From assembly GCF_026210795.1 (NCBI RefSeq), contig NC_089441.1, positions 4,092,001 to 4,156,000 on the forward strand: a stretch of 64,000 bases of DNA, given 5' to 3'. Under the pieces are notes generated by a model. The model saw nothing but the letters and a program-made list of their open reading frames with translations, made no database searches and was not told the DNA's origin. Numbering within the stretch: position 1 is the first letter of the stretch; every line of letters starts with the position of its first letter. A program made the position numbers and the translations under genes. This DNA is from Rhizophagus irregularis (lineage: Eukaryota; Glomeromycota; Glomeromycetes; Glomerales; Glomeraceae). Of this stretch, positions 35,300 to 63,708 are shown in pieces.

Positions 35300-35406
35300 A
35301 GTATAAAGCTCAGTAACTTTACAGAAACCTTGAAAATTTGAGCGATGTTGAATTGATATGGATACGATATAAATTTCATGTCATAATGGTATCAATTTCC
35401 GTGATG

Positions 35407-36035
35407 ATATTGTTATAATGTTGATTCGATATCGTTACTTCATCACCATAATTTATCGCGAAAATATCGTGGCGATATCTATTTAAAAGAATATCAAATC
35501 GGCACAGTCTTGATATCATTACGATGTCAGTAATTTCAAAAAAAAAAGATGTAGTATTTTCGATATTGATTTGATATCGTCACTTCATCACCATAATTTA
35601 TCGCGAAAATATCGGGACAACATTTATTTAAAAGAATATCTGATCGGTATAGTCTTGATATCGTTACGATATTGTTAATTTCAGGGAGAAAAAAGATGTA
35701 TTTACGATATTGATATGATATCGTCACATTATCACCATAATTTATCGCGAAAATATCGTGACGATATCTATTCAAAAGAATATCAAATCGGCACAGTCTT
35801 GATATCATTACGATGTCAGTAATTTCAAAAAAAAAAGATGTAGTATTTGCGATATTGATTTGATATCGTCACTTCATCCCCCAATTTATCGCCGAGATAT
35901 CATGACAATATCTATTCAAAAATATCTAATCGGCACAGTCTTGATATCATTACGATGTCGGTAATTTCAAATAAAAAAAAAAAGTATTTACGATATTGAT
36001 TTGATATTGTCACTTCATTGCCGCAACTCATTTGT
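35407..36035 (+). repeat. 144-bp satellite, about 4.3 copies
   Basis: GATATTGATTTGATATCGTC recurs at 35562, 35706 (one change), 35851 and 35992, with a diverged first copy from 35407. Each unit also has ATTTATCGCGAAAATATCG and GGCACAGTCTTGATATCATT. It is rich in GATATC words. The array begins about 95 bp beyond the LINE 5' end. Confidence 0.9.
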
Positions 36036-36568
36036 GGTATCGCAACTCATCCGCAATACCGTAAATATTAAACTTTATTTTTTTACAAATTAATAAAAAA
36101 CTTTTAAATGTATAACGTGCTGTCATATTAATAAAATAAAATTCTGATATTTTATGCGATTTTGAGAAGCTATTACTGATAGAGTTGCATTTTACCTTCT
36201 AATTTTAACATTGCATCCTTAAAACATACGAATATCGTCAAAAAATCCATGATTTCTCAATATTAATTTTATTTGTGATTATCTAGAATTCAATTAAGTA
36301 ATATTTTTAAGTAATATACATTAGTTATCTCAAAAAGTAACTTCTTCTTAATAGACTTAGAGAATACAATGTTGCAAAGCATCTTTTAACGCCAGATTGA
36401 GCTTGTGCATTCATACACCGTCATCCACCTTGTCTCCACGTACGATTTTAGACCTCCTCCTTGTATATTTTTTAATTGAATAGCGCTTTAAGTAATGCCG
36501 CGCCTATAGCCGAATTTTTGAAAAATCTTGTGAGATTACATTTGCGCATTTAATCATGTCAGAACTGA
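36036..36568. other. Non-coding stretch
   Basis: Nothing supportable beyond GCGGTATC/GCAACTCAT words at its left edge, shared with the nearby satellites. Confidence 0.4.
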
Positions 36569-36919
36569 TTAAATTAACGCAACGCGCAATGCACCGTATA
36601 TCGAGAATTGATGGATGATTTTGAGAGATAATTCGGCGGTGTGGTCCCATAGAGCTGATAAAATGATCATGTGAATCTTAGAATAGATAACAAATAGAAG
36701 AAACAAAATTAAAATCAGAATATTAATAAAGAAATAATAATGAAATTTACCAATCGTACAATTAGTTTCCTTAGCTAATTCATTATAGATTCGTAAATTT
36801 ACACGAGCCAATTCAGCTTGTAATAACGTTCCACTTAAAATTTGTCGAGTTGGTAGTAGGTTGTACGCTGGTTGTAAAGTTTTAATCATATCAATAAACC
36901 AAGGCGTTTTCAATAACAC
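36569..36919 (-). pseudogene. hAT transposase fragment
   Basis: TPWFIDMIKTLQPAYNLLPT then RQILSGTLLQAELARVNLRI and NELAKETNCTIG matches the hAT region encoded at 50546-50815 (NPFFIDLLRTLCPGYNPPCR, EKNLTLG). In that element the intron donor follows at the same place; here too GTAAATTTC follows. Only this middle exon is recognisable, so it is a truncated old copy of the family, reading leftward. Confidence 0.7.
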
Positions 36920-37604
36920 TAAATGGGATGCTACTCAATACTCATATCAAAAGCTTTAGTAACCGAACGGTCAATAGCATCAAAATATCTCTTTTCCAAT
37001 TTGTTGTTTTTTTTGTTAAAATTTTGAATTGATGTATGTTCGTAATTTTGTCTTTGCTTTTATTTGGTGATTACCTCCAGTTTAATTAATCACGATATTG
37101 CAAATTAACTGTGATTAATTATGGTATTGCGGAATAATTGTAACGTTGCAGAATAAATGCGGTTGCGAAATTGCGAAAATTTAGACATCATAATTCGTAA
37201 TGTTCGCAATATCATAACCGTCATCCTTAATTATAACAAAAAAAAATTAATTTGCAAAAAATTAGACTTTTGTTTATTTTATTACTAAAAGCATCATGTG
37301 GTATATTACAAAATTTCCTTGAATATTGAACTTCACGTGATACAAACTTACAATTAATCAAAAAAAATCTTGATATCGCTAATATCGAAGCGGTATATCA
37401 CGAAGACATCCCCATGGTTTTTTTTTTTGCTTTCCCTCCTACGTTCAAAAAAGATTTTTCAGAAAAATTATAGATATTAAAAAATTGTTACGATGTGAAA
37501 ACTGATAATTCCACGTGTATAAATATATATAATAATAAAAACATATAATACACAATATACCTTATTTCGCAATCGTGATTTTCTTTCATCATTACTACTC
37601 TCTT
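36920..37604. other. Non-coding stretch
   Basis: AT-rich, with several ATATTGC/GCAATAT words between 37080 and 37230. No gene or bounded element. Confidence 0.4.
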
Positions 37605-38916
37605 CATTATCAACGGAACGTCAGCGCCTATGTAATAGCGAGATAAGTCCAATGATCTTGCAACATTTATTTTTTCAGCTACGAGCTGTCTTATCGTCTT
37701 TTTTTTAATTAAACATATAATCCAACAACATTTCGAAGAGCTTTTTTCATTTCTTCAGGTAATTCATTTGAAACACACGTTAACCACCGACGAAATATAG
37801 CCAAAACTTCAAGGGGAAGATTGCGAAAATTAGCGCCAATACTACTACTATTTTGATACGCGCTACCTATATTCGGCCACAATTCACTCCTCTTAAATTC
37901 CTAGCAGAATGGTCAAGATGCTGTACGAAAAAATAATGCTCTTAATTCAACGTATATGATGTTTCGATCCCCATTTGGGAGGGAACTATAACGTTGCTTT
38001 CTAATAATTCGCTCATCTATTTCTGACTTTATTCACTAGATCTTTGCTCTTGGGAAGGACTTCTGGGTAGTGACGGTCTTTAACAAAGTAACTCCAATTA
38101 TTAATTAATAGTAGTTGTTCAAATTCGTCTCTATAATAAAAATTAAAATAGGTTCGAAATATATGAATTATAAATATTACAGATTTATTATAATGATACG
38201 TAAATATATTTACCTTGGGAGTACGTGTTTGTGCATTTTTCAAACGCGGAGAACAATATGGAGAACTAGCCGGAGAAGATTCCATCGGAGTTGTTGATAA
38301 TATAGGACTTTGGCTTTTCTTATATTGCCTTCCGGCAACCATATTGACGTATTCAGGAAAACAAGCCCAAACCGACTACTTAATTGCAAGATGATCTGAC
38401 GCTTTACTCGTTATGTTCTCAATTCTTTCTTTTTTAATATTTCGTCTACAATTATTAGATAGATATCAAGGTAAGTGAATTATTCATATCATAAAAAGAA
38501 AGAATACTGAATATCAACTATAAGTCACCTATTTCTTCTTGACCAATTTGAGGCGATGATAGACGATAGAGCGATGATTGAGGTAGCGGCGACGATTGAT
38601 ACTCTTATAGCTATTGAGGTGTTGCGACCATTAAGGTTGAGATTGTTGAAGTTGTTGCGACCGTTGAAGGTTGTTGAGGTTGTTGAGGTTGTTGAGGCCA
38701 TTGAGATTGAGGTGGTTGCGGCCATTGAAATTGTTGAGGTTGAGATTGTTGAAATTGTTGAGGTTGTCGCGGCCACTGAAATAGAGTTTGGGGTTGAGAT
38801 TGTTGCGGTTGTTGAGACTGAGGTTGTTGATATTGCGGTTGCGATGGCTGCCAATGTTTAATAAGCGAGCCTTTTTTACGAATTCCTTGTTCTTTATCAA
38901 AATCTTGAGAAGACAT
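37605..38916 (-). pseudogene. Family member A (Gln-rich N-terminus, shared C-terminal domain), broken
   Basis: The N-terminal exon starts MSSQDFDKEQG at 38916 and has SLIKHWQPSQP followed by a Gln/Pro/Trp-rich stretch (QPQQFQW, QSQWPQ). Member C starts MSSQDRN and has SLIKHWEPSQP at the same place. The reading frame drifts near 38650, then QEEIG precedes a GT donor. Further exons give FPEYVNMVAGRQYKKSQSPI and, after an intron (about 38219-38130), DEFEQLLLINNWSYFVKDRH. The C-terminal part follows with stops: ELRALFFRTAS, IFRRWLTCVSNELPEEMKKA and INVARSLDLSRY. The order and splice positions match member C, so A is a decayed paralogue. The function is unknown. Confidence 0.65.
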
Positions 38917-39104
38917 TTTAATGATAGTTAAAAAATGCAAGTCAAAAAAAAACAAATATCTAAATATAAAAAAAAAAAGAAATAATTAATTGAATAAAAA
39001 AAAAAAATTTTTTTTATCCCTTTTTTTTTGCGTTGATCTTACCACATCATGATCGAAAAAAATTAATTATTAGTTTTTAAATTATAAATTAAATTACAAT
39101 TTTA
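38917..39104. promoter_or_regulatory. 5' flank of member A with a block shared with member C
   Basis: CTTACCACATCATGATCGA lies at 39038-39056 and, identically, at 44444-44462 upstream of member C (about 120 and 85 bp before the two start codons). It could be a retained promoter element or a leftover 5' exon ending in a GTAAG splice donor on the minus strand. Confidence 0.5.
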
Positions 39105-40553
39105 CTAATTTAATATATAAACTTGCCTTTTGGGTAATTCCAGATTTAGAATAACTTCCTTGTCCGGAAAAACTGCTTCTCTTAATAGGCAATTGGATCC
39201 CTCAGGATCTTTTGGCAAATCGTACTCAAATTTGACAAATATGAGTTTCGTATTATTAATATTTACATCAACAGAGAGATTTTTCACATTAAAAATAAAA
39301 ATATCTACAATTAAACAGCTTTACCAAAAAAAAGTAAATAAAATATTAATAAAAACAATTAATATTAATATAAATAAACTAATATTAATACCTATTAATT
39401 TCGACTTCAAAAATATTGTAAGCTGGTAATTGTGATATTAATTTCGACTTCAAAAATATTGTAAGCTGGTAATTGTGATTGTGATGGTTGTGGTGATTGT
39501 GGTGGTGGGAGTTGTACCGGTGATGATTGTGGTGATTGTGGTGGTGGGAGTTGTAACGGTGATGATTGTGGTGATGGTTGTGATAGGGACGGCTGTACCG
39601 GGATTGTAGTGATTGGTTTTGTGTATTCTAATTTTTTATAAAAAATTTTAATAAGTAATAATTCCTTCATTAATTTATATTTCATTAATGTAATAATAGT
39701 GCTTACAGATCGTCCATCATCATCGTCGTCATCATCATCATCATCATCATCATAATCATCATCATCTCCTCCTTTTGACGTGCTTCTGCGAACATGATTG
39801 TTTTACTTAGAGGTCCGATAAATTTTTTGTTTCTCACATAATTGTAAAATCTAGTTTTATCATCATCATTTTCGAAGTGCACAAATCCATGCCTAAATAT
39901 AACAAATGTTCATTTAATTAAATTATTAATTAAAAATTGTATATATTAATTATTTTATTTCATTACCCCCAATCAGGATCCTTTCTGATATGTACAAAAT
40001 TGTAAGAAAATCTATTCTTTAACCATCCCTTAACGTCTTTCGATTTTATCCCTTTTAACTCTTTCGTGTTCTTACCACCGAAGAAAACTGATAATTTATG
40101 ATCACGACAACATTCATGTCTTTTCTTACCTATATTATTATTAAATAAAATTAAAAATAATAAATTAATACTTTATATTAAAAAAAAGAAAAATGATTCA
40201 TTCTTGATATATACTTTTTCATATAATATATTTGATTTCAATAAAGGAATATTAAATATCATATTTTAACAAAGGAATGGGAATGTTAAAGATGAAAGGA
40301 AACATATTTTAGCCTTTCGGGACGAAAGGAATCTTATTTTAGCCTTTCGTGACGAAAGGAATCTTATTTTAGCCTTTCGTGACAAAAGGAATCTTATTTT
40401 AGCCTTTCGTGACAAAAGGAATCTTATTTTAGCCTTTCGTGACAAAAGGAATATCGATTATTTTAACCAAGGATTTAGCCTTTCATGACGAAAGGAATAT
40501 TTTAATTCAGCCTTTGTGACAAAGCGGAATAGCAAGCAAATTTACTTACCCAT
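39105..40553 (-). CDS. RRM RNA-binding protein, multi-exon
   Basis: ATGG at 40550-40553 is followed by GTAAGT. An acceptor before 40129 gives a second exon (40129-39967) and another before 39892 a third, all in phase. The joined start reads MGKKRHECCRDHKLSVFFGG. The RRM covers about residues 13-90: RNP2-like LSVFFGG, then KNRFSYNFVHIRKDPDW, RNP1-like HGFVHFEN and KFIGPLSKTIMFAEAR. After it the third exon enters an (ATC)n tract (39710-39770) whose frame, Met- or Asp-rich, depends on the next splice. Later exons are probably a Pro/Gln/Ser-rich one at 39407-39630 (PLQLPPPQSPQ twice) and a final one, 39287-39105 (FVKFEYDLPKDPEGSNCLLR). The last junctions are uncertain. It sits between family members A and B on the same strand. 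An RNA-binding role is from the domain; the target is unknown. Confidence 0.65.
40294..40526. repeat. 30-bp minisatellite in the first intron of the RRM gene
   Basis: AAAGGAATCTTATTTTAGCC then TTTCGTGACG repeats about six times, more regularly in the middle. CTTTCGTGACGAAAG is a near-perfect palindrome at each unit junction. The array lies wholly inside the roughly 420-nt first intron (40549-40130). Confidence 0.85.
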
Positions 40554-40793
40554 TTTTCTTTGTTTACTAAATCTTACGAAACCCACATTCTTATTGTAAT
40601 TCGAATGCAAAATTCGATAAATTTTATTGGTCAGTTAATGTTAATCATCATGTGAAATCAAATATTTTTTTTAGTCATACTCAAGTTTCACAAACCCAAT
40701 TATATTGCACTATACGTCATAATTACACATCTTAATTACAAAAAAACTTTTCGTGTCACTTATCAGTCCAATCAAAAATAAATAAACCGGATT

Positions 40794-41200
40794 TTGAACA
40801 GGCATAACACGAGATTATATTTAAACGGTACGGTAACACTATTGGCTTTAGCCTTTAAGCAATGTGACGAAAATTATACCCTACCTCCCGCTGTCAACAC
40901 CTTCTTCACCAAGAATATTATATTCTTCGAGAGATGTGTTAATATCTATGACGAACAACAATTGGCTAATTCCTTACAACCATCCAGTATAAAGAGGCCT
41001 GTAAAATTTGTAAGTATTTTGGCCATTCTGTAAAAAGTTGCCCCAATTTAAAATCGCAGTTTTGATGGGGTAATTATTGTATACGCTGCTGGAAAGCTGG
41101 GCACAACAGTAGTGAATGTAAAAATGAACTGGAGGTCGTGCCGTTCAACGAAGAGTTTCGTTCTCCAGAAGAAATTGTAAATTTTTTGATTTATAAATAG
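40794..41200 (+). pseudogene. Fragment with a CCHC zinc knuckle
   Basis: The frame 40794-41033 (LPPAVNTFFTKNIIFFERCV, IKRPVKFVSIL) stops, and a second frame at 41069-41200 encodes GNYCIRCWKAGHNSSECKNE then PFNEEFRSPEEIVNFLIYK. C-x2-C-x4-H-x4-C is a retroelement-type zinc knuckle. It may be part of a LINE ORF1 or another retroelement protein, but no polymerase is nearby. It reads opposite to its neighbours. Confidence 0.45.
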
Positions 41201-41479
41201 TTTATTTTTTTTAAAAAAAAATTTTGAAATTTTTTTTTTCTTACGAAATTTACCATGAGTTTGCTGGTAGCAAAGTGGCAAATTTCGAAAGTTTATCTGG
41301 GCCGTGGTGGCAGGGTGAACTTTTTTTTTTATACTTTTATTGTATGAAATATTTTTCAATTTTTACAACCTAATAAAGAGTTAACGGACATTTTTTGAAT
41401 ATCATCTTGAATGCCAAATTGATATGGTGATAATGTTAAATTCATATTGCAGAAAATATAAAAAAAAATTGTTCAATAT
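41201..41479. other. Non-coding stretch
   Basis: A/T homopolymers; nothing supportable. Confidence 0.4.
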
Positions 41480-41960
41480 GGAAGTCAGTAATTTGATGGA
41501 TCAGTGATGTCAGAATCAACATCAGAAGTACATATTGAAAGATCACGTCGTATTTTGATAAATTTATTGATGTCGCGACGTTATAACCAGAAGTACTTGG
41601 AAAATCGCAGTTAACTGTGTAGAGGCTTCCATTAAACGAGAAAAATTTTTCATGTGCTGCGTCATTGCTCCTCTTCCAAATTAATGATTTCTGCTTGTCT
41701 GGTTGATTGAGATTGTTGTCTCCTCTTCAAAATGTGGACACCTGGGCAATATTGTAAACGAGGTAGTTGTTCATCCTCATAAGGATATTGCAATCGAAAT
41801 GGTCTGTAATTACGTCCAAATTCAGGATAATATTGTGATTGAGGTTTATAAATGGATTGTTGTTGCCGTTGATATTGCTGATGATGTTGTTGTAGATGTT
41901 GTTAGTGAAGTTGATGTTGATGTTGCTGTTGCTGTTTTTAAAAATAACCTTCACGATTAA
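41480..41960 (-). pseudogene. Family member B, internally deleted remnant
   Basis: The minus strand from about 41950 encodes a Gln/His-rich stretch (QQQQHQHQ, QQHHQQYQRQQQSIYKP, QSQYYPEFGRNYRPFRLQYP) with one stop. It continues to LKRRQQSQSTRQAEIINLEE. Immediately after that lies the family's C-terminal block: HEKFFSFNGSLYTVNCDFPS then TSGYNVATSINLSKYDV. The middle of the domain (the LFLRT, VAKS and IFxxWL blocks) is missing, so the N-terminal exon and the last 45 residues have been joined by deletion. It is a non-functional paralogue of members C and E. Confidence 0.6.
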
Positions 41961-42545
41961 CTCAATTTAATATTTTATTATTGTATTATAAAATCCAATA
42001 TACTAATAAAAATGATTTGATTTATTTTAAAAAAACACTGCATAATATCTTCGTGATATCGGTTTGTAATTGTAAAAAAATTATCTAAATGATATCGCCG
42101 TGATGTTTCATAATTGTACCAAAAAAAATCTAAATGATATCGCCGTGTTCAATTCAGTTAAAGAATGCGAATGAATGTTCGTTAATTTTGGTTGCAAATT
42201 TGAAGTTTTATTTTGGCAATAATGTTATACAATAGAAATAAAAATGATAAAGAATATACTATCTACCCGTCTTCTTTTAGATTGTGAAAGTAAAAAAATA
42301 TATATATATATATATATATAGATACAAAGAAAAAAATTATTGTTGTAGTAACAATGATAATTATAATTATTTGACCTGGTTTTTAAAATGATGGTTTTTT
42401 ACATAGAATTTTTTTTTTTAAAAAAAAAAGAAAAATTTGTTTTATAAATTTACATACGAACCTCTCATCAAACTTCAACACACGACCAGATACTTTACTT
42501 TTCTACGCTAAAAATTTAAATTGAAAAAAATCTACATAATATATA
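41961..42545. other. Non-coding stretch with GATATCGCCGTG words and an (AT)n tract
   Basis: CTAAATGATATCGCCGTG occurs twice near 42085 and 42130. (AT)n lies at about 42299-42320. Nothing coding. Confidence 0.5.
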
Positions 42546-44360
42546 TTATTTTTTTCGCTTTTTAGTAGATTTCTTTGATTTCGGCTTTGGTTCATCCTCG
42601 GAGCTGGAATTTGAATCATCATCATCATTATTTTCAATTTCATACTTTGATAAATCAATCGAAGAACCAATATTATATCCAGATAAATTGTTAAAAATAT
42701 TATTAACCGTATAAAGGTTTCCGGTGTGAGTAAAAAAACGGTCACGTGCATCACTGTTATAAATTTCTAAACAGTGGAATCCAAAAAGAATTAAATTTTT
42801 AAGCGAATTTTCATTTTCTTGAGATATCGGCTTGTTCGAAAATTTCAACCAAAGGTTGAATATTTCTTCAATATGACGACCTTTTAAGTACGGCTTGAAA
42901 TCAAGACTTTCGTCTTTTTCTTTACGTTTTTGATAAGTTTCGTATCTAAGCTTGATGTTATCCCATAATGTATTTCTCCAGTACGACCAGGTTTTACGAA
43001 AACTTTTTGCTACATTATGTAATATGTCAGGATGATCGTTCATAAAAGTTGGTAACAATGACGCTAAGAAATCTTCTATAATTTGATTATTGTTGCTTTT
43101 ATCTAAGTTTCTTGTTCTTAGGAATAATGATTTTAATTCGTTAATCACTATTATTCTTAACCACTTTGGGATAGAGTTTTGCAACGATATAATATTAGAA
43201 ATTCTCTTCTGGTTATATGATATATTTGTATCACGATCTGTGAACTTTTCAGGAGAATTTGCATAAGGGCGAATCGATGTTGGATATCTTCGATTCTTGA
43301 GATAGAATTTTGGCAGCTGTAAGCCTGAGCTTAAGAGTTCTTCTTCCATATCATCCCTAATTTTTAAAGAAAACATTGTTATATGAAGATTACAAGATGA
43401 TAAATATGAAAAAAATATATTTGTTACATTGGATTCATCCGAGGGAGAGTTGAAGATGTAACAGAAGGTATAGCAATACCAAGAGAAGAAGTACTAGTAC
43501 TACTTTGAGTTATAAGAGGAATTTCTTCCAAGGTATCCCTAATTTTAAAAAACATTATGTTAATATGAAGATTATAAGATTATAAATATGAAAAAATCAT
43601 ATTCATTACATTGAATCCGTCCGTGTGAGAGTTGGGGTTGTCATAATAGGTGTAGACGATGAGGAAGTGCGGCTTCGTTCTTCACTAGAACGCTTGCCTC
43701 TGTGGATCATCTGCTCGATTTGATCATGTAAATGTTCAGGGAGCGTCATGGCAAAGCGTTCTGCAATAGATTGTCGGACATAAACAGGATTAACGGCTGG
43801 TGGACATGATGTCCTCGATTTGTAGAAATAGTGTAGCGAGTAAATTATCTATATGATAGAAATAACGTTACAAGTTATTGTTCTGTTATTGAAGATTTCT
43901 TCAAATACCGAATATTATAATAATACAGACCAATTTCTTCATCTGAAAGTAATTGTGTTGAAGGATGCTGCAAGTGTTGTGAGGAATACGAGGGGTATGG
44001 AAGCTGTTGTTGTGACGAGGGGTATGGAGACTGTTGTTGTGACGAGGGGTATGGAGACTGTTGTTGTGACGAGGGGTATGGAGACTGTTGTTGTGACGAG
44101 GGGTATGGGTACAAGGGGTATGGAGAATGTTGCCGTGACGAAAAACGTTGAGAGGGATATGGATACTGTTGCTGTGACGAACGTAAGGAAGGTAAAAGTT
44201 GAGATGATTGAGATAAATATTGTTGTGACCATTGAGGTTGAGATTGCGATTGCGAAGGCGATTGCGAAGGCGGTTGCGAAGGTTCCCAATGCTTAATAAG
44301 AGAGCTCCGTCTATGACTTTCTTTTTCTTGTACAGGCTTATTACGATCTTGAGAAGACAT
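42546..44360 (-). CDS. Family member C: repeat-rich N-terminus, shared C-terminal domain, nuclear tail
   Basis: Start MSSQDRNKPVQEKESHRRSS at 44360. Exon 1 has SLIKHWEPSQP, then Ser/Gln/Pro-rich sequence including four tandem SQQQSPYPS-type units. Downstream exons: about 43848-43610 (FAMTLPEHLHDQIEQMIHRG), 43538-43428 and 43356-42546. Introns 43609-43539 and 43427-43357 are both 71 nt with GT..AG and keep the frame; the exon 1/2 junction is uncertain. The last exon holds the shared domain: LLSSGLQLPKFYLKNRR, SIPKWLRIIVINELKSLFLR, HNVAKSF, LKGRHIEEIFNLWLKFSNK and LYTVNNIF, then SGYNIGSSIDLSKY. It ends with an acidic stretch and PKSKKSTKKRKK, a nuclear localisation signal. I do not recognise the domain. 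All frames are open, so this copy looks intact. Paralogues A, B, D and E flank it. Confidence 0.75.
43990..44127 (-). repeat. 27-bp coding minisatellite in member C
   Basis: GAGGGGTATGGAGACTGTTG then TTGTGAC (plus strand) repeats four times and then degenerates. On the minus strand each unit encodes SQQQSPYPS, so length changes keep the frame. Confidence 0.9.
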
Positions 44361-45569
44361 TTTTTGATAATGGTTTATGAGTTAAAAAATGTGGGTCAAA
44401 AATTTTTCAATTGAATTTTTTTTTTTATTTAAATAATTTTAATCTTACCACATCATGATCGAGTAAAAATACGGTTAATTTTGAAAATAAAAATTATTTT
44501 TTGCCATTGATCTATTACATCGTGTAATACAGATTTTTTTAAGGGAAAAAAAATCTGATTAATTATTTAATATAATGATGGATATTGTGATTAAATCATG
44601 AACAAGTAATTTTTTCATATCGTGATTATATTACTTTTTTTCCTTAAAAAAATCATACGGTACAATAAAAACAATGGAAAAAAGAATTTTTTTTTTCTTT
44701 TTCGAAATTAAATAGATTAGATTGAGTCAATAATTAGACTTTTCTTTTTTTCGAAATTAATCTCATCATATGATTACGGATATTGTAATTAAATCATGAT
44801 CGAGTAGAATCTTTTTTCAATTTTTCTTTTTTTTCTTTGTGATCGAATAAAATTCCATATCGTGTTTATACACCTATTAGCAAAAAACTTTTTTTTGCAA
44901 AAAAAAATTGTATTGATATTGGTTTCCTAATAACACTACGGGTTCCTTTGAACCCTCTCAAGCATCTAAAGTTAAACTCTCTCATAAACACAGAGAGCGC
45001 AACTTACCTTAATATGACATGAATACTAAATATGCTTAGTAGTGAGAACGAAAAATTAAATTTTGGGGATCAACAAACTGAAATGGATTTTAACACATGA
45101 ATCCTTCAGATGAAATTACTATGTTAGTAGAAAATTCAGGAGGTGGAAATAAACAGTATAATTATAATTTTGCTTCGCCACAATAACTTTTTATGATGGT
45201 AACAATCGTTATATAATTTTGATTATTTTCTACATGACCAAAATAAGTATATTGTCTTTTTAACAAAATTTTTTTAAGATCATCAAAATATTATTTTGAT
45301 ATTAGCAACTGAATGTTGGAACACATGATCGGAAATCTGATTCTTCAATAATTTAAGTATAATACTTATACGAAAATTTATAGCATATTTTTTTTATTTT
45401 ATATTATAGTGTATTATAAGTTTATTATATTATTATTATCATAAAAAAAAATTGTGACCCGTCTTGCATAATTGCGCTTCTTCACTCCAATGTAAATAAA
45501 ATGTGATAAAAGATAATTTTTTTATTATAGTACCTAATATCATAAAAACGCTAACATTTTATTTATTAG
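44361..45569. other. Intergenic stretch between members C and D
   Basis: Mostly A/T runs. ATCATGATCGAGTA occurs near 44452 and again near 44797. At 45099-45188 a short plus frame MNPSDEITMLVENSGGGNKQ ends at a stop; it could be an upstream exon of member D, but nothing confirms this. Confidence 0.4.
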
Positions 45570-46165
45570 GGATGATATTGAAAAAAGCTTGTTGAAGCTG
45601 GATTATCGTTACCATTAAAATATCTGGAAATTTGATCATTTTTCAAAATTTGATTTGACGAATCGTTCAAGTACATCGTTCCTAAATAATGGCTTCAATT
45701 CGCCGAAAATTATCTTTCTAATCCACTTCGGTAGTGATTTGTACGACTCAAAAAGCAAACGTGCCATTTGAGCTTGAGTAATGCTGCCTGAATTGTGTGG
45801 ATCGATGAATTCTTTTTAAGGATACGCTGACGTGTTACAAATTTATAATAATTTGCATAACGTCCTTTGGAAGAAATTAGTAGAAAGGTACATTAAATAT
45901 AAAAATAGTAAAGAGAAGATTAAGCCGAATGTAAATCTAAAGAATCGACAAATTAAGGAAAATACTAACGGAGGAGAATAAGAGCGCACTTAAAATCTCA
46001 TCATCTTTGGGTTTTATTGTATTGAGAATTTATAAGATGCGCACGACAAATTTTTCTCATTTTACGGAAGCCTTTTCACAGTTACTTGTGATTTTCCAAG
46101 CTCTTCGAGATATAATATTGCGGCTTCTATGGATTTATCAAATTTTTATGTAGTCTTTAAATAAT
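45570..46165 (+). pseudogene. Family member D with an internally inverted segment
   Basis: The plus strand starts just after TTATTAG with GATGATATTGAAAAAAG, the same acceptor and exon start as member C's last exon (DDIEKS, then AGLSLPLKYLEI after a frame change). From about 45640 to 45815 the matching text is on the minus strand: KEFIDPHNSGSITQAQMARL, LFESYKSLPKWIRKIIFGEL, KPLF. From about 45818 it is plus again: YNNLHNVLWKKLVERYIKYK, PNVNLKNRQIKE. The 3' end has FGFYCIENL, DAHDKFFSFYGSLFTVTCDF and SRYNIAASMDLSNF. So one exon carries a roughly 180-bp segment turned around, as well as stops. Confidence 0.7.
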
Positions 46166-46424
46166 AATAATCATACACGTGATAATACAGTGGCCATAAG
46201 TCACACGCTCCTGGGTATAATTTCATGGGATGGTTTTTTCCCGAAGGGAAAAAACCCTGAACTACTGTAGTTACTGAAACAGGAATTATACACGAGATCT
46301 TTACGTTGTACTAAACTAATTTTGACGACAGTACAATTGGACAATTTCCAAAATTGTTGAATCCCAATAATAAATAACATCTTTTTTCGATAAAAAAAAA
46401 AGGTAATTTTCTTTTCATTTAATA
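46166..46424. other. Short intergenic stretch
   Basis: Contains a short inverted repeat TTTTTTCCCGAAGGGAAAAA at about 46227-46246. Otherwise nothing is supported. Confidence 0.4.
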
Positions 46425-46897
46425 ATGGGAAAACCATCATTACATTCTAGGAAAACGGCCTGGCGTAGACAAAAAAAACGACAATATAAAAAATTTAAAC
46501 AAAAAGAAATTGAAATATCTGATCTCCAGATACAGCTCCAGGATTTCCAAAAAGCTGTTGAGACAGCCGGTGAACAAGTGATTTCCAAGCTAGACAAAAC
46601 TGAGCGTGAAAACGCAAATCTATTGAAGTGGATCGATATTTTTTCAAATCAAATCTCAAGTCAGGAAGAAGAGATATATAAGCTTGAATTAAAGAGTTAT
46701 TTAGCACAATCATCATCGTCTCTGTCATCTCCACCACAGCCACCATCATCATCATCATCATCACAATTGTCACCGACATCTTTTAAAAGCATGGATGAGT
46801 ACTTTAAACATAATCAAGTTAGTAATTTTTTAGGTATTGTGCAATTTTTAATGATTTTTATTTTTATAATTAATGAATTGTTCTCATTTTTTAGTAA
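46425..46897 (+). CDS. Basic coiled-coil protein, bZIP-like layout
   Basis: MGKPSLHSRKTAWRRQKKRQ begins a strongly basic stretch (residues 8-28), followed by a heptad-like helix IEISDLQIQLQDFQKAVETA and KLDKTERENANLLKWIDIFS, then a Ser/Pro-rich tail. Basic region plus coiled coil resembles bZIP DNA-binding proteins, but the canonical N-x7-R signature is not clear, so this is by layout only. The unspliced frame runs to 46985 through a very hydrophobic, A/T-driven tail. A GTTAGT donor at 46818 and a TTTTTTAG acceptor at 46894 would remove a 77-nt intron and place TAA directly after codon 131 (HNQ). I prefer that shorter protein. It lies between members D and E and reads opposite to E. Confidence 0.55.
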
Positions 46898-47674
46898 AAG
46901 AAATCTAGTAGTTCATTATTTTTTTTTACTATTCTCATTTTTTTTAAATAAAAGAAATTTTTGTAATATTGAAATAAATACATAAAATAATCAAATTCGT
47001 ATTAATAATATATCGTGTAAAATATGTTTTATTTGCCAGTAAATAATAAAAAAAAATATTTGTAAAGGTTTAACTGGGAAATTTTCGCCTATCAGGAGGA
47101 TATGGGGAAATTTTCGCCCGCTAGAACTCTACGATAATAATCGCCATAAGGTATACATAGTAATCGAACCAGAGACCCGCTGCGATGCGGATTTCCTATC
47201 TCAAACTACTCTACCACATGCGATTATCTGTTTAAGGGATATTTATTGATTACTCTTTATTACTAAATTACTGGATTATTGATTGTGCTATTCCCTAATA
47301 AGGTTTGTACGATCACTGTAAGACCTGTTATGTATGTATATATACATGTTAATTGTTACTGCGTTAAGAGATTGTTAATTTTTTTTTTATCAAAAATTAA
47401 ATGAGAAAACGATTACAGTTATGATAATTGATGATTATAAGGTCAAGGTTACGATAAAAAAATAATTTTTAGAGAATGACATAAATAACAGATTAATAGT
47501 TATATTTTAGCGTCAAATTGTGTTAGTGAAGTTATTACGACATTAACTTATTAACTTGTGAAGTCACATTCTATAAACTTTTAAAACAATATGATATATT
47601 GTAATCTTTATTATAATAAAGGAATAAAAAACATATCAATGTTATCACGGTCTTTTATGTGATATGTACTGTAT
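46898..47674. other. Non-coding stretch with a tRNA-like segment
   Basis: Besides the tRNA-like piece at 47137-47228, no gene is seen. TGGGGAAATTTTCGCC-like words occur twice at 47070-47120. Confidence 0.4.
47137..47228 (-). other. tRNA-like segment (possible tRNA pseudogene or SINE head)
   Basis: The minus strand has TGGTAGAGTAG, a perfect RNA polymerase III A box, and GGTTCGATTAC, a B box with one mismatch, about 45 nt apart. ATAATCGC near one end pairs with GCGATTAT at the other. The T stem and D stem do not pair properly, so a working tRNA is unlikely. Confidence 0.3.
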
Positions 47675-49349
47675 TTATGAAAAAAGATGGAGTTTTAAAG
47701 AGCTAGCAATGTTTCTTCCGCTACGGGAAGGAATTTCTAGATCTTCTGTAATAACATCTAACTCCTTAACCTTTTCTTTGATATTTGCGCTTTCAGTTTC
47801 AACCCAGACTATTTTGAAGCATTTTCTGGAGAATTCTATTAATTTATCTAGTGAAGTTTCCGATAATTTTGTAAAATCGATGGCTGAAACGTATCGGCTT
47901 AAGATTCTCTTTAAAACCACCTCACGTGATATGAAGTTGTTTACTTCCTCGTCGGTAGGATCTGAACTTTCCGTATATTCACTTTAATAGAAAAAAATTT
48001 TAAATCATTAAATCATTGTAGTAAAAACAACATAACGATATGAACGTATCGATCACCTTTCTACAATTTGTCGAAATTCTTTTACTAATGTTGAAAGTAC
48101 ATTTTTCAATTGATATCGATAGTCGGAAAATGATTTACGATATCGTTCGTTAATTGACTTCGCCACGCTTTGATAAGCATCATGCCCAAAAATTTTTTGT
48201 GTTATTTTATCAAACGCATGATCGGGCGGATTTCTAGTTCGCAAAAAAAGACATTTCATTTCTTCGTCAATAAGACGATAATTATCCTAAATAGTAATAA
48301 TATCAATAATACATAATACATCAGTAATTCTGCTGTGTAATAACGATTGTTCTTAATTGGTAAGAATGTAACAACCAAAATAAGAAATGGACTTTACGTT
48401 GTCAGATGATGACGAAGTCGAGGTGGTTAGTGGCAAATTTGTTGATGGCTGCTTCGTCGAGGCATCAAGCATTTTGTTTGCCAAATGTAGCACACTTGGA
48501 TGTAAGACCAACCAATTGCAAATTTGCAATTGATTGGTCATTGCGCCAAACTGAACCGGAATTTCTTCTTCACTCTCTAGAAGTAATATTAAATGAGAAT
48601 AAAATTATATTCATTAATTATGTTCAGATTTTATGTTTTACCGCTTTCATCATTTTCATTTTCTTCTTGTTCTTTATCTTGCTCTCTCCTATCTCTCTCC
48701 CTCTCTTCTTTCTCTCTTCTTTCTTTTTCTTCTTTCTTTTTCTTTTTCTTTCTTTCTTTCTTTTTCTTTCTTTCTTTCTTTTCTTTCTTTTCTTTTTCTC
48801 TTCTCTCTTTATCTCTCCTCTCCATCTCTTTCTTCTCATTTTCTCTTCTTTCTTTTTCAATATTTCTTTCTTCTTGCTCTGGAAGCATATCTTCATTATA
48901 ACGAAGTAAATTTATTTTTAAATAAATTCGCAGAAATATCATTTCAATTGAATAATAAAACAATTATTATAAGGTATTTACCCAAAATAATTCTTTCAAT
49001 ATCATCATCTTGTCTATTATTACCTTCTCCAATATCTACATCTTGTCCATGTAAATTATCTTGTTCATGTTCACTTCCTTCCTCTCTCCTTTCATCTCTT
49101 TCCTTATTATAATCACGTGAAGAGTTGGCAACATATGTACGAATAGTTTTTGTAGTCTTTGCAGCTTTTGTTGCCTTGTCTTTTAGGTATCATTATAATA
49201 GTATTAGGCGCAATTACTATATAAAATTTCAAATCAAAAATATAATTTTATTACCTTTTCCTGTTACTCCTCTGCGTTTGTCACGATAAACAAACAAGAT
49301 GGTACTTATTGGTATTGTGCTAGTAGCAACGTAAAGAAATAGGTGATTC
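47675..49349 (-). CDS. Family member E: Lys/Glu coiled coil plus shared C-terminal domain
   Basis: Six exons fit, all with GT..AG and matching phases: 49349-49255, 49179-48982, 48878-48642, 48576-48398, 48286-48057 and 47981-47675, about 415 residues. A further 5' exon is probably missing, since the first listed exon has no Met and follows a CAG acceptor. It opens with a hydrophobic, possibly membrane-spanning stretch (HLFLYVATSTIPISTILFVY) and a basic flank. Then come an acidic exon and a long charged coil (RRENEKKEMERRDKERREKE). The shared domain follows: EEMKCLFLRTRNPPD, HDAYQSVAKSINERYRKSFS, and at the end LEIPSRSGRNIASSLKL. The VAKS and LFLRTRN blocks equal those of member C. Function unknown; this copy looks intact. 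Confidence 0.75.
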
Positions 49350-49394
49350 CTGACGAAACGAATACAGCATTATCTTTATTTATTTATAGAGATT

Positions 49395-49869
49395 TCTCCT
49401 AATATTAAGAAAAATTACATCGCGACCGCAAAGACATAAAAGGAAATTGGGTTAGCATTCTTAAAAAAAATGTTCATGGTTACATTAAATCTTGGATAGT
49501 TGATCGGAAGAATTTGTTAATGGTTACATCGATTCTTTATGAAGAAAATTTTGGGAAAATTTGATGTCTTAACGGTTACATGTAAAGAAATTATATATGA
49601 GTATCGTAACTGTAGGACATAAACGGAAATTTGGCCAACAAAATTTTCAAATTATTGGAATAATTGATCGGGAAAATCCTTAATGGGTATATTAGCTCTT
49701 TGTCCGCAGAACATTAATGGTAATTTCGAGCAATATTAACGGTTACAAGTAAAGAAGCTATATATGAATATCGTGATCGCAGGACATAAACGGATTTTCG
49801 GGATAATTGATCAGGAGAAAAAATTTGTTAATGGTTACATAATCAGGGTTGAAGAATTATACTGTACGT
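49395..49869 (+). repeat. Dispersed repeat field, left part
   Basis: Units carry GGTTACAT, TCGTGATCGCAGGACATAAA and TTGATCGGAAAAATT-like words at 100-170 bp intervals. The last 95 bp are repeated almost exactly at 55016-55110. The array is cut at 49870 by the hAT element. Confidence 0.75.
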
Positions 49870-50234
49870 TATACATGGCCTGGTAATTCAGTATTTTCGT
49901 ATAAATACGTAATTCGTAATCCTGGTAATTAATTACCAGATTACTTGAAAAATACGTAAATACGTAATTATTTACGTATAACGTAATTATTTATATATGA
50001 CGTAATTAAATTAATATAAATATATATATATAATTAATAGATAATATAGTGCGAAATTATTTTGATCAACTTCCAAATTAATAAAACTATCTAAACCATA
50101 AATAGTAATTTATTTATTAAGTAAAAAAACTATAAAAAGTAATCATTCATTTTTTTTTTAACATTTAAAAAAGAATTTATAATTCTTTCGCGTTATAATA
50201 TACTTCTTTTAAATCTTTTTAAGATATTTTAAAT

Positions 50235-52616
50235 ATGGATGACAGTAATGATAATCAAAATACAATTATTAATCAAAATAAAAAAAAACGTGGTCGTCCA
50301 AAAACTGATATTTGGGATTATTTTAAGGAAGGGCCAAGAAATAGAGGGCATTGTTCAGCAGAATGTAATTTTTGTGGCTGGAAACAACAAGTAGGTCAGC
50401 CTATTGAAATGCAAGGACATATTGCTTTAAATTGTTTAAAGGTATCACCTGAAGTAAAGTCTTTATTCCTGGAAAAAGTAAAAAATAATGGACATCTCGG
50501 TTATAATAAAAAAAATTAAAATTAGCCACAATCAGCCAAAAATAGATGAGATATTTGATTCAACCAAAATTGATCAAGCTTAAAATTGAAATGGCAAATC
50601 GTGCTATTGTAAAATTTTTTGCTTGCTGCGGTATCCCTTTTCATATAATTGAAAACCCTTTTTTCATTGATCTTCTTCGTACATTATGTCCGGGATATAA
50701 TCCACCATGTAGACAAACTCTTACAGAAGATATGCTTAATGCGGAAATTTCACATGTTATTACTGAAATAAATCTTAAATTAAATAATGAAAAAAATCTT
50801 ACATTGGGTACGTAATAATAATTTATTATAAAATATAATAAATTAAATTATTAATTGTAATTTCTTAATTTTTAAAGGAGTAGATGGTTGGACGAGTACT
50901 AGTGGACAATCACTTTATGCATTTGTTATTATTACTGGTGAAAGAAAAGAATATATTCACTCAGTTCAAAATTTATCAAACTATTCACATACGGGAGAGT
51001 TTTTAGCAAATAAAATAATTGAGGTAATTGAAAATGTTGGAGTTACAAAATTTGCAGGAATAGTATCAGATAATGCATCTACAATGGTCATGGCAAAAAA
51101 GCTAGTTAACGATCGATATGGATTTATAATGCCAATTCGGTGCATTGCACATCATATAAATCTATTAACCAATGATATTTGTAAATTAGAGTTTGCCCAA
51201 TCAATATTAAAAAAATGTATGAAATTAGTTCATTTTTTTAAAGCATCTCATCGGGCAGGTGCAGAATTAACAGATGAAATAAAGGAAAATATGGTTAAAG
51301 GTGGTAAATTAAAGGGGTATTGTCAAACGAGATGGATGACTGCATGTGATTGTGTTTCTTCAGTTTTAAGATGCGAAGAAGCTCTAAAAAATGTTGGTAT
51401 TTATTGATTATTTTTAATTATTTATTTTTAATTAATTTTAATAAATTTATCTAATTTTAGATAGCAAATAATAACCCGAATTACCTAAAGCAAAATATCA
51501 AAGAAATTATTACGAGGCGTTTTTTTATGGATATTGAAGAATTACAATTAATTCTTAAGCCAATAAAAGAAGCCATCAAATATTTAGAAATGAAAAATGC
51601 AACGTTAGCAGATTGTTTCTTACAATTAATAAAATTGTCATATTCAATCAAAAGCTTATCAGAAACTCATACTACTTTTCGACAACAATGCATTAAAGCA
51701 TTTAATAAAAGGTGGATGCAGTTCGATTTTAGGTTATATATGTTAGCCTATTTACTTCACCCACTATACCGTGGTACGTATTTGATAAAATAAAATGATG
51801 ATTTTTACCTTATTTAACAATTAATTAATTATTAATTAATTAAAATATCATAGGTAAAGGATTCCGAAATCAAGTATGCCGTAAAGTAGTTTATTGGGCA
51901 ATTGAAAATATATGGATAAAAATGGGAGGCGGAGAAAATTCCAGTTCCAAATTAATTGGGCAAATTGCTGCTTTTCGTGATAATCTTCCTCCTTATAATG
52001 ATGAATTTGTTCCTAAATATTATACAGTTGAGCGTTGGTGGAGTTATGTAGAACAAGATGAAGGAGAAGAAAATTTTATCCAACAACTTGCATTAAAAAT
52101 ATTTTCAATAACTCCACACAATGCAGGATGTGAGAGAATATTTTCCGTGATGGGTTGGTATATGAATAAAAGGAGAACACGGTAAATATTTATTTTATTG
52201 TTGCTAGTTATTAATTTTTTTTTTGAATTTTAAATTTTAAGTAATTCCTTTCAATTAGATTAAGTGTGAATCATTTACAAAATCTTACGAAACTTCACAC
52301 ATATTATGTTTCAAACGCGAAAACTGAATTAAAGTATACGGCTAGAGATATGAATGTCAAGAATGATGAAGAGTTTTATCAATTGGTAAGAAATGGTATA
52401 TATCAAAATATTAATGATGAAATTGGAGAGGAAGAATTAGATAATGAAGACGAAGATTATGGTGATACAGAAGACGAACTTGTTGACATAGAAGAGTATG
52501 AAAAATTTGGGCATAAAAGTAACGATAGTGTTTTACAAAGTGAAAACTATTTTAATTTTGTATCAAAGGAGCTAGTGGAATTATTAAAACTTCAGGGAGC
52601 CGCGAGTAGTTATTGA
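50235..52616 (+). pseudogene. hAT transposase (BED finger, DDE core, hATC)
   Basis: Exon 1 has an AT-hook-like NKKKRGRPK and a BED-type finger (CSAECNFCGW ... HIALNC). Then come RAIVKFFACCGIPFHIIENP and FFIDLLRTLCPGYNPPCR. After an intron (GTACGT at 50810 to AAAG at 50877), VDGWTSTSGQSLYAF gives the first Asp, IVSDNASTMVMAKK the second, IRCIAHHINLL the conserved His/Cys helix and YCQTRWMTACD the RW motif. Later exons reach the hATC dimerisation domain: YYTVERWWSYVEQD then ITPHNAGCERIFSVMG, with the catalytic Glu. Four introns of usual size fit. Breaks are slight: one or two single-base frame changes in A-runs near 50510 and 50580. This suggests a fairly young, recently lost copy. Confidence 0.85.
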
Positions 52617-52999
52617 ACCCGTAAATGTTGATCATATTGTTGACCACGGTAACGAAAATTTCGATATAGAGAAATTATTAGACCAACAATTTAGTGAAGA
52701 TGATGATGTTAACGTTTAGATAGTCCATAACTCATATTCATTTGTTGTATATTTTGATTTGTTTTATTTCTTTCAAAATTTTGAATAAAAGCTTCTAACA
52801 ATTTTGCGTTCTAACATGAAGAATTTCTTCTTAATTTATTTTAAAGACAATAATTTAATACATTATTTCATTTAATTTATTTTTAACAATTTTGTATAAT
52901 TTTACTAATGTTTAACAGTTTTTATTTAATGCTTAACGAAATAGATTAATAATATTTAATGATCTAATTTAACAATTTACTTTAATAATGCTTAAGATT

Positions 53000-54055
53000 T
53001 TCAGAAACTGAAATCTACAAAAAAATAAAAAGAAAGAAACGTACGTTTCTTCAAATTTCAAAAGAATCTGCTCTCATACACGTACTTGTGTTCTAAGAAA
53101 CCGAATCTACAAAAAATAAGAAACGTTAGTACGTTTCTTCAAAGTAAATTTCAAAAGAACCCGCCCCTATACACGTACCCGCGTTTCTTCAAAATAAATT
53201 TCAAAAGAACCCGCCCCTATACACGTACCCGTGTTCTTAGAAACTGAAATCTACAAAAAAAAATAAAAAGAAAGAAACGTTAGACGTTTCTTCAAAGTAA
53301 ATTTCGAAAGAATCCCGCATACACGTACTTGTGTCTTGTGTTCTAAACCGAAATCTACAAAAAAATAAAAGGAAAGAAACGTTAGTACGTTTCTTCAAAG
53401 TTAATTTCGAAAGAACCCGCCCCTATACACGTACCCGTGTTCTTAGAAACCGAAATCTACAAAAAAATAAAAAGAAAGAAACGTTAGACGTTTCTTCAAA
53501 GTAAATTTCGAAAGAATCCCGCATACACGTACTTGTGTCTTGTGTTCTAAACCGAAATCTACAAAAAAATAAAAAGAAAGAAACGTTAGTACGTTTCTTC
53601 AAAGTAAATTTCGAAAGAACCCGCCCCTATATATGTACCCGTGTTCTTAGAAACCGAAATCTACAAAAAATAAAAAAGAAACGTTAGTACGTTTCTTCAA
53701 AATAAATTTCAAAAGAACTCGTCCCTATATATGTACCTGTGTTATAAAAAACCGAAATCTACAAAAAATAAAAAAGAAAGAAAACGTTAGTACGTTTCTT
53801 CAAAGTAAATTTCAAAAGAACCCGCCCCTCTACACGTACCCGTGTTATAAAAAACCGAAATCTACAAAAAAATAAAAAGAAAGAAACGTTAGTACGTTTC
53901 TTCAAAGTAAATTTCAAAAGAATCCGCGCATACACGTACCCGTGTTCTTTATAGAAACCGAAATCTACAAAAAATAAAAAGAAAGAAACGTTAGTACGTT
54001 TCTTCAAAGTAAATTTCAAAGAGCCCGCCTCCATATACTTACCCGCAGATTCCTG
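53000..54055 (+). repeat. 102-bp satellite inside the hAT element, about 10 copies
   Basis: ACGTTTCTTCAAAG recurs at about 53283, 53385, 53487, 53590, 53688, 53792, 53893 and 53996, with shorter copies to the left. Each unit has GAAACGTTAGTACGTTTC (a hairpin) and CCGAAATCTACAAAA. Alternate units in 53283-53690 resemble each other more than their neighbours. Confidence 0.9.
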
Positions 54056-54149
54056 GAAGCCGAAACTTATTTATTTATTAAATAAAAAAAATACAATCTA
54101 AAAAAAAAGAGTACATTTTTAATGATTGGAATTGATAATCTAATCAAAT

Positions 54150-54370
54150 CTATTCCGATCAATTACGTAATTACGTACATCGTAAATAATTACGGTAAAC
54201 GTAAATTATTTACGGGTACATTTGATTAATTACGAAGTCATAAATAATTACGTTAAACGTAATTATTTACGGTAAACGTAATTATTTACGAAATACGTAA
54301 TTATTTACGGTAAACGTAATTATTTACGAAATACGTAATTATTTACGTATTTCGAATTACGAATTACGTT
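54150..54370. repeat. Subterminal motif array at the right end of the hAT element
   Basis: ACGTAATTATTTACG and its variants (CGTAAATAATTACG, GGTAAACGTAATTATTTACG) occur about eight times. A smaller set lies at 49905-50000 near the left end. Clustered short motifs next to the ends are known transposase binding sites in hAT elements. Confidence 0.7.
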
Positions 54371-54400
54371 TTTGGCCAATGATTTACCAGGCCATGTATA

Positions 54401-55760
54401 CTGTACGTACTATATTATGCTGTCCTAATACTTAAATAGAGTACATTTTTTATATGTTTAATATATTATATATTTATTTTAATAATTAGGATTGATAATA
54501 AATTATTAACTATTCTTTTAATCTTAATAGAAAAAATATTATATTAAATATTTAACAGTGCAATATTAATGGGCAATGGAAAAATTGCGGTTACATGTAA
54601 GGTGATCGCAGGACATAAAAGGAAATTTAGATTCAGATTTGGGGATAATAAAAATTATTAATGGTTACACATTGATTTTTATCTGCAGCGCATTGATAGA
54701 ATTCAGGGGTAATCTGAAAAATTTGACAGAAATATCGTGATCGCAGGACATAAACAGAAATTTAGATCAAAAAATTGATCAGAAAAATATTTGTCAACAG
54801 TTCTGTTGATTCTTTATCTGCAAAAGATCTTTATCTGCAGCACATTGGTGGAATCTAGGGTAATGATCTGAAAAATTTGACATGAATATCGTAGTCGCAA
54901 TAAATAAATAGAACTTTAGGTCAATAATTGATCAGAAAAAATTATTAATGGTTACATTGATTTTTTATCGCAGCGCATTGATAGAATTCAGGGGTAATCT
55001 GAAAAATTTGACAGAAATATCGTGATCGCAGGACATAAACGGATTTTCGGGATAATTGATCAGGAGAAAAAATTTGTTAATGGTTACATAATCAGGGTTG
55101 AAGAATTATACTGTACGTACTATATTATGCTGTCCTAATACTTAAATAGAGTACATTTTTTATATGTTTAATATATTATATATTTATTTTAATAATTAGG
55201 ATTGATAATAAATTATTAACTATTCTTTTAATCTTAATAGAAAAAATATTATATTAAATATTTAACAGTGCAATATTAGTGCAATGTATACAGTAAATTG
55301 ATGAATTTTGGGCAATGGAAAAATTGCGGTTACATGTAAGGTGATCGCAGGACATAAACAGAAATTTAGATCAAAAAACTGATCGGAAAAAAATTTTGTC
55401 AACAGTTCTGTTGATTCTTTATCTGCAAAAGATCTTTATCTGCAGCACATTGGTGGAATCTAGGTAATGATCTGAAAAATTTGGCATGAATATCGTGGTC
55501 GCAATAAATAAATAGAAATTTAGATCAATAATTGATCGGAAAAAATTGTTAATGATTACATTGATTTTTATCTGCAGCGCATTGACAGAATTTGTTACAT
55601 TAATTCTCTATCTCGGAATTATTTTAAAAAAAAACTTTTACAAGTTGTTGACCCAAATTTCCTTTTATGTAGTGCAGTCACGATATCACAGTCGTAATAT
55701 TATAAAAAAAATTACTTTGTACTTTTTTCCCAAAGAATTCAATTGATATTTTTTTAAAGT
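54401..55760 (+). repeat. Dispersed repeat field, right part, with internal duplication
   Basis: 54401-54620 matches 55111-55345 almost base for base (CTGTACGTACTATATTATGC, AATAATTAGGATTGATAATA, then AAAATTGCGGTTACATGTAA). Units with CGTGATCGCAGGACATAAA and TTGATCAGAAAAA recur through the stretch. Confidence 0.85.
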
Positions 55761-55851
55761 TTGACTGTCCATATCTTATCAGTTACATATAAAAATACCA
55801 CATCTCAGATCAGAGTTTTTAGATTTCTAATAAAAAAAAGTTAGAAAGAAA

Positions 55852-56119
55852 ATGTCCTCTCCCAAACCTAGTAGAGAAGAAACAGGTATAAAAAAAAAAT
55901 ACCTCATATTAATTCATTAAATAACGTATGATAATATTCATATAATTTCTTTCATATATAGATAATACGATATTGATCTCGCTAGACGATCTAATAAAAG
56001 AACAAACCCGATTGAACGATCTTCGCCAAACCAACATTAAAAAGAAACGGCAACGTCCGTCTCGTAACAACCGAACGAAGACCATGGAAGACTGGGCTCA
56101 GATGGTGAAAAAAGTATGA
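55852..56119 (+). CDS. Small basic two-exon protein, 63 residues
   Basis: Exon 1 (55852-55885) encodes MSSPKPSREET and ends at ACAG before GTATAA. Exon 2 (55962-56119) follows a TATATAG acceptor, in phase, and encodes NTILISLDDLIKEQTRLNDL, then RQTNIKKKRQRPSRNNRTKT and MEDWAQMVKKV, then TGA. The 76-nt intron is of the usual size here. The middle is strongly basic (possible nuclear localisation) and preceded by an amphipathic helix. The GC content of exon 2 is clearly above that of its AT-rich surroundings, which supports coding. No known domain was recognised. The gene sits between two oppositely oriented repeat fields. A fragment of a longer gene is the alternative. Confidence 0.55.
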
Positions 56120-56400
56120 TCATTTGATTCTTTAATATTTTGTGATAATTTGAAATATTTAACACTTTAAAATTATTTGTTAGAATTGATATTGCCATTA
56201 TATGAAGTTATATCTCATTACAATACCGCACAATATTACTATATTCACCTTCTTTTCAATTTATTTCAATAAAAAAATAAATCTTATGTAATTTTATAAT
56301 TGTATATATCCGTAAAGCTCACCACTAGTGATTTTATCATAATAATTGATCGTAATAATTTAAAATCATAAAAATCAAAATTTCATATAAACCGGAACAC
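56120..56400. other. Non-coding stretch
   Basis: AT-rich; nothing supportable. Confidence 0.4.
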
Positions 56401-57380: not shown

Positions 57381-57491
57381 AAATATTATAAAAGCAGTTA
57401 ATGAATTAAATACACAAACGCGCATGGACATTTTTTAAATTTATGATTTTATTTCATTTTATTATTCCTTATTATAATTATTGTCATAGCC

Positions 57492-63674: not shown

Positions 63675-63708
63675 TTAAAATATTGTGGCAAATTTGAAGA
63701 TTTCAGCA

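Follow-up and report, generated by a model that had tools for sequence, protein, structure and literature searches.

The window analysed here, i.e., a stretch of 64,000 nucleotides on contig NC_089441.1 of Rhizophagus irregularis (contig C13 in the following, positions 4092001-4156000), contains five related gene pieces, A to E, all of which reside inside one mobile element (35317..63711) that is repeated across the genome. Member E is the second gene of this element and the regular partner gene of its transposase lineage, and it is under purifying selection. The element represents a CACTA-like two-protein transposon system with ends, a target site, and a partner family of its own. The genome searched comprised 146.7 Mb on 32 contigs.

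Extent, ends, and copies of the mobile element

Near-identical copies of C were found at 15 loci on 10 contigs (one each on C1, C12, C14, C16, and C26, two each on C2, C8, C13, C15, and C18). Four other copies and their flanks were compared with the window: homology sets in at position 35317 for each of the four and extends to 63711 for the three in which the stretch compared includes the right end. Long pieces of these copies are mostly 94-99% identical to the window; in the C2 copy, however, similarity drops to around 70% in the A region. The window copy is 28,395 bp long, including a nested hAT element of 4,527 bp (49870..54396, plus strand; DUF659 over the cut-off, hAT dimerisation domain below it) with tandem repeats of around 102 bp at 53015-54070. 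As this hAT element is absent from the four other copies compared, it was rejected as the carrier of A to E.

The ends common to the copies are CTTTACAG.../...CAGCAAAG. The left terminal sequence CTTTACAGAAACCTTGAAAATTTGAGCGA (35317..35345, plus strand) occurs at 22 genome places with up to three mismatches, and a 39-base pattern of the right end, which bears the terminal sequence CAAATTTGAAGATTTCAGCAAAG (63689..63711, minus strand), at 19; the reversed controls yielded none in either case. The left end CTTTACAGAAACCTTGAAAATTTG and the right end CAAATTTGAAGATTTCAGCAAAG are imperfect inverted copies of one another. All 15 near-identical copies possess the right end without a mismatch, and four more places match it with two or three; the left end, with up to three mismatches, is found in 14 of the 15 (exception: C13:136k) and, besides these, in an older C15 copy (3.16 Mb) and at seven places elsewhere. 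As calculated from the end positions, the 15 copies with both ends measure between 23.6 and 39.5 kb. At the right end, a perfect inverted repeat of 99 bp adjoins the terminus (63419-63662).

The window copy is flanked by a target duplication AA (35315..35316 on the left, 63712-63713 on the right), and a related empty site for this insertion exists on contig C2. Among the 15 copies with both ends, 12 show a duplicated 2-bp flank (TA in ten, AA in two). A relative ending in CTTTACTGAAA is itself inserted at TA within the transposase gene of the C2 copy, and in a relative on C4 the end TTTCAGTAAAG is followed by TA.

The initial annotation had regarded A to E as a purely local chromosomal gene cluster shaped by birth and death. 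That five related pieces lie close together would fit this view; however, the precise common ends, the target duplications, the empty site, and the relative inserted at TA in the C2 copy contradict it, the stretch as a whole belonging to a mobile element with copies throughout the genome. A local cluster is thus refuted by the element boundaries and was rejected as extremely improbable. The same annotation had named a match to a known transposon protein as the observation that would tell against its interpretation: since the whole stretch lies in a mobile element, this is in substance what was found, although the protein itself is not a named one.

The family of A to E

Concerning the five members, C (42546..44360, minus strand) is an intact multi-exon gene with a head rich in Gln and Ser, a conserved C-terminal domain, and the basic tail noted before; its splice sites are our own reading of the sequence. 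Two of its introns (43341-43473 and 43523-43655) are 78% alike, as if an exon and an intron had been tandemly duplicated. Member E (47675..49349, minus strand) carries the domain in two exons (48053-48286 and 47675-47983). A (37605..38916, minus strand) is a broken paralogue of C, and B (41480..41960, minus strand) a remnant consisting of the C-terminal block and a Gln-rich stretch. D (45570..46165) is a scrambled remnant with pieces on both strands (45651-45815 on the minus, 45859-46152 on the plus strand). Thus, the proposal that C and E look intact and the other three decayed holds.

With the last exon of C as query, tblastn matched D (E 9e-13) and B (E 3e-9, 51% over 41 amino acids) within the window, and weakly E (E 0.19) and A (E 0.32). 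At the position of A in another copy there is an open frame of 328 amino acids (L018), which is 36% identical to C (query 7-271, E 9.6e-38). In hhalign, the C family (5 sequences) aligned with the E family (10 sequences) over 163 columns with a probability of 96.7 and an E-value of 4.8e-10, the highest value among 30 column-shuffled controls being 3.63. Therefore, the common C-terminal layout described for A to E reflects homology. The heads, by contrast, are not freely swapped as had been suggested, because A and C carry the same one (MSSQD...SLIKHW.PSQP; E 8e-12).

The family is real, and, as had been stated, it is unnamed in the libraries searched: the pieces scanned (from C, E, A, and B) contain no Pfam family over its cut-off, and neither C nor the E profile has a significant sequence match in PDB. 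In the literature searched, no title or abstract opening describes the lineage or the E/C family; our statement extends to these texts.

Each of the 15 C copies has two such remnants nearby, one D-like and interrupted by three internal stops, the other B-like (one of the 15 B-like matches being weak, E 0.44). Hence, the decay of D predates the spread of the element, and B, C, and D do not form a local cluster. Given the homology of C and E, the best reading of A, B, C, and D, from sequence comparison, is that the giant subfamily acquired additional, diverged copies of the E-type domain in the interval from its left end to E.

The last exon of C has 65 genome matches at E ≤ 10. When B- and D-like rows and split pieces are left out, 27 C or A places are counted, 22 of which have a counted E place at most 15 kb away. 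The exceptions are C15:1091522, C6, C11, C16:2606229, and C19, those on C11, C16:2606229, and C19 having E-values above 0.1. Two C or A places on C5 are near an E, with no counted transposase within 99 kb. In two relatives (on C4 and at C2:4.98M), C, E, and the transposase stand in a row on one strand.

The 277-amino-acid stretch of C is open in 12 of the 15 near-identical copies. Among these 12, 37 codons vary, 25 with and 12 without a change of amino acid; the pairwise ratio of non-synonymous to synonymous substitution rates (dN/dS) is 0.39-0.52 in C (three pairs) and 0.47 and 0.92 in pairs of A, each based on few changes. Recent constraint on C and A is therefore weak or unmeasurable. In the last exon of C, comparison of the C4 and C2 relatives gives a dN/dS of 0.37 (dS 1.40).

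The transposase, its partner gene, and the palindromes

The transposase gene (57447..61061, plus strand) is broken in the window copy by a stop and frame shifts; in a copy on C18, the matched transposase exons contain no stop. The family is large, with at least 152 genome matches at E ≤ 0.001 (117 of 353 candidates scored); 115 listed places were counted, rows representing further pieces of one copy being left out. Member E, searched with its two exons, yielded at least 186 genome matches at E ≤ 10 (150 of 229 candidates scored) and, counted in the same manner, 99 listed places.

The two genes are associated: of the 99 E places counted, 66 have a counted transposase place no more than 8 kb away, compared with a random expectation of 1.5 on average and 6 at most (200 draws). 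A similar association exists between E and the element ends. The end pattern TACTTTACWGAAACCTTSAA has 111 genome matches with at most one mismatch, its reversed version none. At 44 of 100 listed ends, a counted E is situated inside within 5 kb, at a distance of 2,655-4,614 bp (random expectation: mean 0.4, maximum 3), and all 44 genes point at the end; on the outer side, an E occurs within this distance at one end only among the 100. With the distance extended to 16 kb, an E is present inside 61 of the listed ends (59 of these genes pointing at the end) and outside 5.

With respect to selection, E exhibits dN/dS values of 0.14-0.16 in three pairs (dS 0.54-1.01). Uninformative were four saturated exon comparisons (L053-L054 twice, window-L055 exon 2, L047-L048 exon 1) and the close pair L049-L048 (0.52). 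Scans of IMG/VR with one transposase and one E protein returned nothing useful.

The transposase is remotely related to the CACTA/EnSpm and Plavaka transposases. The scanned pieces reach no Pfam cut-off, including those of Plavaka (PF18759) and Transposase_21 (PF02992), and an assignment to either family proper was accordingly rejected. In hhalign, the transposase profile aligned with Transposase_21 (three sequences of the same genome) at a probability of 94% (E 1.4e-7) and with Plavaka (four sequences of the same genome) at 81% (E 1.3e-5); among 20 shuffles each, the highest values were 0.34 and 1.37, respectively. The motifs given by Kojima for the CMCT clade (D, D, then CxxC and HxxxH, then E; PMC12730594) are traceable by eye in six transposase copies, the catalytic residues being our own assignment; L048, a broken copy, has N at the second D. 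The genome holds at least 124 Plavaka and 162 Transposase_21 matches, and by eye none of their listed places on C1, C2, and C13 coincides with a transposase place, the nearest lying around 5 kb away (C1:4212685). In the window itself, minus-strand open reading frames (ORFs) at 12426-14630 resemble by eye an ordinary Transposase_21 (CACTA) transposase of a separate element (cf. L089 and L090).

Just inside both ends, the element is packed with the palindrome GATATCGTNACGAT. With up to two mismatches and both strands counted, it occurs 41 times in the window (expectation 1.76; at most 6 in 100 shuffles), many of these matches lying in tandem repeats and hence not being independent. Seventeen form a left cluster (35355..35959) and 19 a right cluster (62356..63628), two are situated at 61139-61142, and three elsewhere. 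Such clusters are also found at the ends of other copies within the stretches compared and in the nested relative that L034 contains, whereas the pieces L021, L047, L048, and L049 show none; the motif is therefore not common to every relative. A genome-wide search allowing one mismatch located the 17-base palindrome at 286 places and the reversed pattern at 2. The distance to a known end is up to 1 kb for 29 of 50 distinct places listed, between 1 and 3 kb for 11, and larger for 10. Directly beside the C18 copy, a neighbouring relative has another palindrome cluster (L035:797-2025) with a CTTTACAG end at 830.

Proposed function and relation to known systems

The maize element En/Spm requires two proteins, TNPA and TNPD, the former of which binds its subterminal repeats (PMC2613891). 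In the present element, an En/Spm-like division of labour, carried out by a different protein family, is suggested by three findings together: the transposase belongs to the same broad clade, the second gene is under selection, and the ends are packed with palindromes. It seems probable to us that A to E are genes of a CACTA/EnSpm-related DNA transposon and that E, perhaps also C, is a TnpA-like end-binding protein. The element would then be a giant member of a CACTA/EnSpm-related lineage spread through the R. irregularis genome, whose transposase would cut and paste at 2-bp, mostly TA, targets. By analogy, E most likely acts like TnpA: its all-helical domain would bind the palindromic repeats just inside both ends and bring the ends together for the transposase, and it may also repress the element's own promoters. 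C, which alone among the extra copies has stayed intact in the window, may serve as a regulator with a specialised role. DNA binding, end pairing, and regulation by E and C are thus inferred functions.

Several observations weigh against this interpretation. The 2-bp flanks do not match in 3 of the 15 copies; among the matches listed, a counted transposase is missing within 8 kb of 33 of the 99 E places, and a counted E within 5 kb of 56 of the 100 ends; exon 1 of E shows a weaker dN/dS (0.38) between the window and L055. Relative to the transposase, C and E are co-oriented in the relatives on C4 and at C2:4.98M but inverted in the giant element. The C4 relative possesses C, E, and the transposase and has no palindrome in the pieces read, including its right end (L047), which suggests, at the level of sequence, that the site bound by E, if any, varies among relatives. 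Furthermore, the structural resemblance of E to a DNA-binding protein is not significant, as detailed in the following.

The E domain of L049 (a relative on C5 with the domain in one frame, used in place of the window's split exons) was modelled with AlphaFold2 from 15 rows, resulting in an all-helical model (predicted local distance difference test, pLDDT, 92.6; predicted template modelling score, pTM, 0.88). Foldseek found nothing at E ≤ 0.001 in PDB or BFVD; among the best 50 of 93 PDB matches at E ≤ 10, the DNA-binding homeo-Prospero domain had the highest template modelling (TM) scores (1mij: E 1.6, TM 0.44/0.53; 1xpx: E 4.1, TM 0.43/0.51; the second value by target), and it was not among the PDB sequence matches of the E profile. 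The model of C is of moderate quality (pLDDT 70.4, pTM 0.69), and a PDB fold search with it found nothing. Upstream in three other E genes (L021, L048, L049, the last two near-identical), there is a motif GRP(K/L)GSK, which we take to be AT-hook-like; the window E has no exact match to it.

A confident E model without a significant match to a DNA-binding protein would also suit a role of E and C on the protein side, e.g., as transposase chaperone, assembly factor, or silencing antagonist, with no DNA binding involved. We consider this unlikely, as the clustering of palindromes at the ends calls for a protein that binds them, and the GRP(K/L)GSK motif lies upstream in the E genes mentioned. It is likewise conceivable, though we would not favour it, that E alone serves the transposon and C (with A, B, and D) is mere cargo for host regulation or host interaction. 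C-type places are indeed much rarer than those of E (27 versus 99 counted), and the codon changes in the open C copies and their dN/dS, given above, agree with this; yet C is homologous to E, mostly lies near an E place, and is kept beside E and the transposase in the C4 and C2:4.98M relatives, with the dN/dS of its last exon reported for that pair. Rather tentatively, E and C may constitute a new class of end-binding proteins with a helical fold of their own, serving a separate CMC-type lineage that has expanded in the genome of an arbuscular mycorrhizal fungus; repeated duplication (A to D) in the giant subfamily would then have supplied the element with a varied set of binders, which might redirect or curb one another.

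Returning to the TnpA-like interpretation, the element shares several traits with CACTA/EnSpm elements encoding TnpD and TnpA (maize En/Spm; soybean Tgmt*, 20.5 kb): the remotely related transposase (Transposase_21), a second protein gene, short imperfect inverted ends, subterminal repeats, and large size (PMC2613891). As with TnpA, the partner is the second gene of the same element, and repeats cluster inside both ends in the window copy and others, although not in the C4 pieces. Despite this similarity, its ends are CTTT..AAAG instead of CACTA, its target comprises 2 bp (mostly TA) instead of 3 bp, its transposase reaches no Pfam cut-off, and its partner protein matches no Pfam family.

Plavaka, a CMCT clade group reported to be prevalent in R. 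irregularis (PMC11075540), is similar in its remote transposase relationship and, for PlavakaA, in the 2-bp target (PMC12730594), whereas its ends are given as TGT..ACA or CATCA..TGATG (PMC12730594), its Pfam model misses the present transposase, and its places differ on the three contigs inspected. The ESTA elements, i.e., EnSpm-like transposons with a TA target (PMC12730594), were compared by description: they have the TA target in common with the present lineage and, as far as readable, the CMCT-type motifs, whereas their three named families carry a TET/JBP gene (PMC12730594); none was recognised here, no search having been aimed at it. More generally, the transposase is related to known CMC/CMCT members, and the 2-bp duplication lies within the 2-5 bp of that clade, whereas most of its members end in CA..TG.

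Further features of the window comprise two ORFs inside the element without a Pfam family over the cut-off in the pieces scanned, i.e., one for a basic coiled-coil-like protein (46407-46985, plus strand) and a short multi-exon gene (39105-40172, minus strand). The region 25739-35316 contains ORFs resembling long interspersed nuclear elements (LINEs), with endonuclease and reverse transcriptase recognised by eye, and a spaced direct repeat of 8.26 kb, the giant element lying at its edge. In addition, there are a 5S rRNA gene (543-661, minus strand) and two ORFs with starts that look by eye like secretion signals (6133-6750, plus strand; 16438-17142, minus strand), one of them His-rich.

Before the curation of 2024, two thirds of the transposable elements of R. 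irregularis were unclassified (PMC11075540). The present results provide a searchable definition of one widespread lineage by its ends, target, palindrome, transposase, and second gene, and they move an apparent orphan gene family to the transposon pool. They also make available for testing a two-protein system that is remote from the CACTA model of plants, and gene catalogues of such fungi may count partner genes of transposons as lineage-specific genes.

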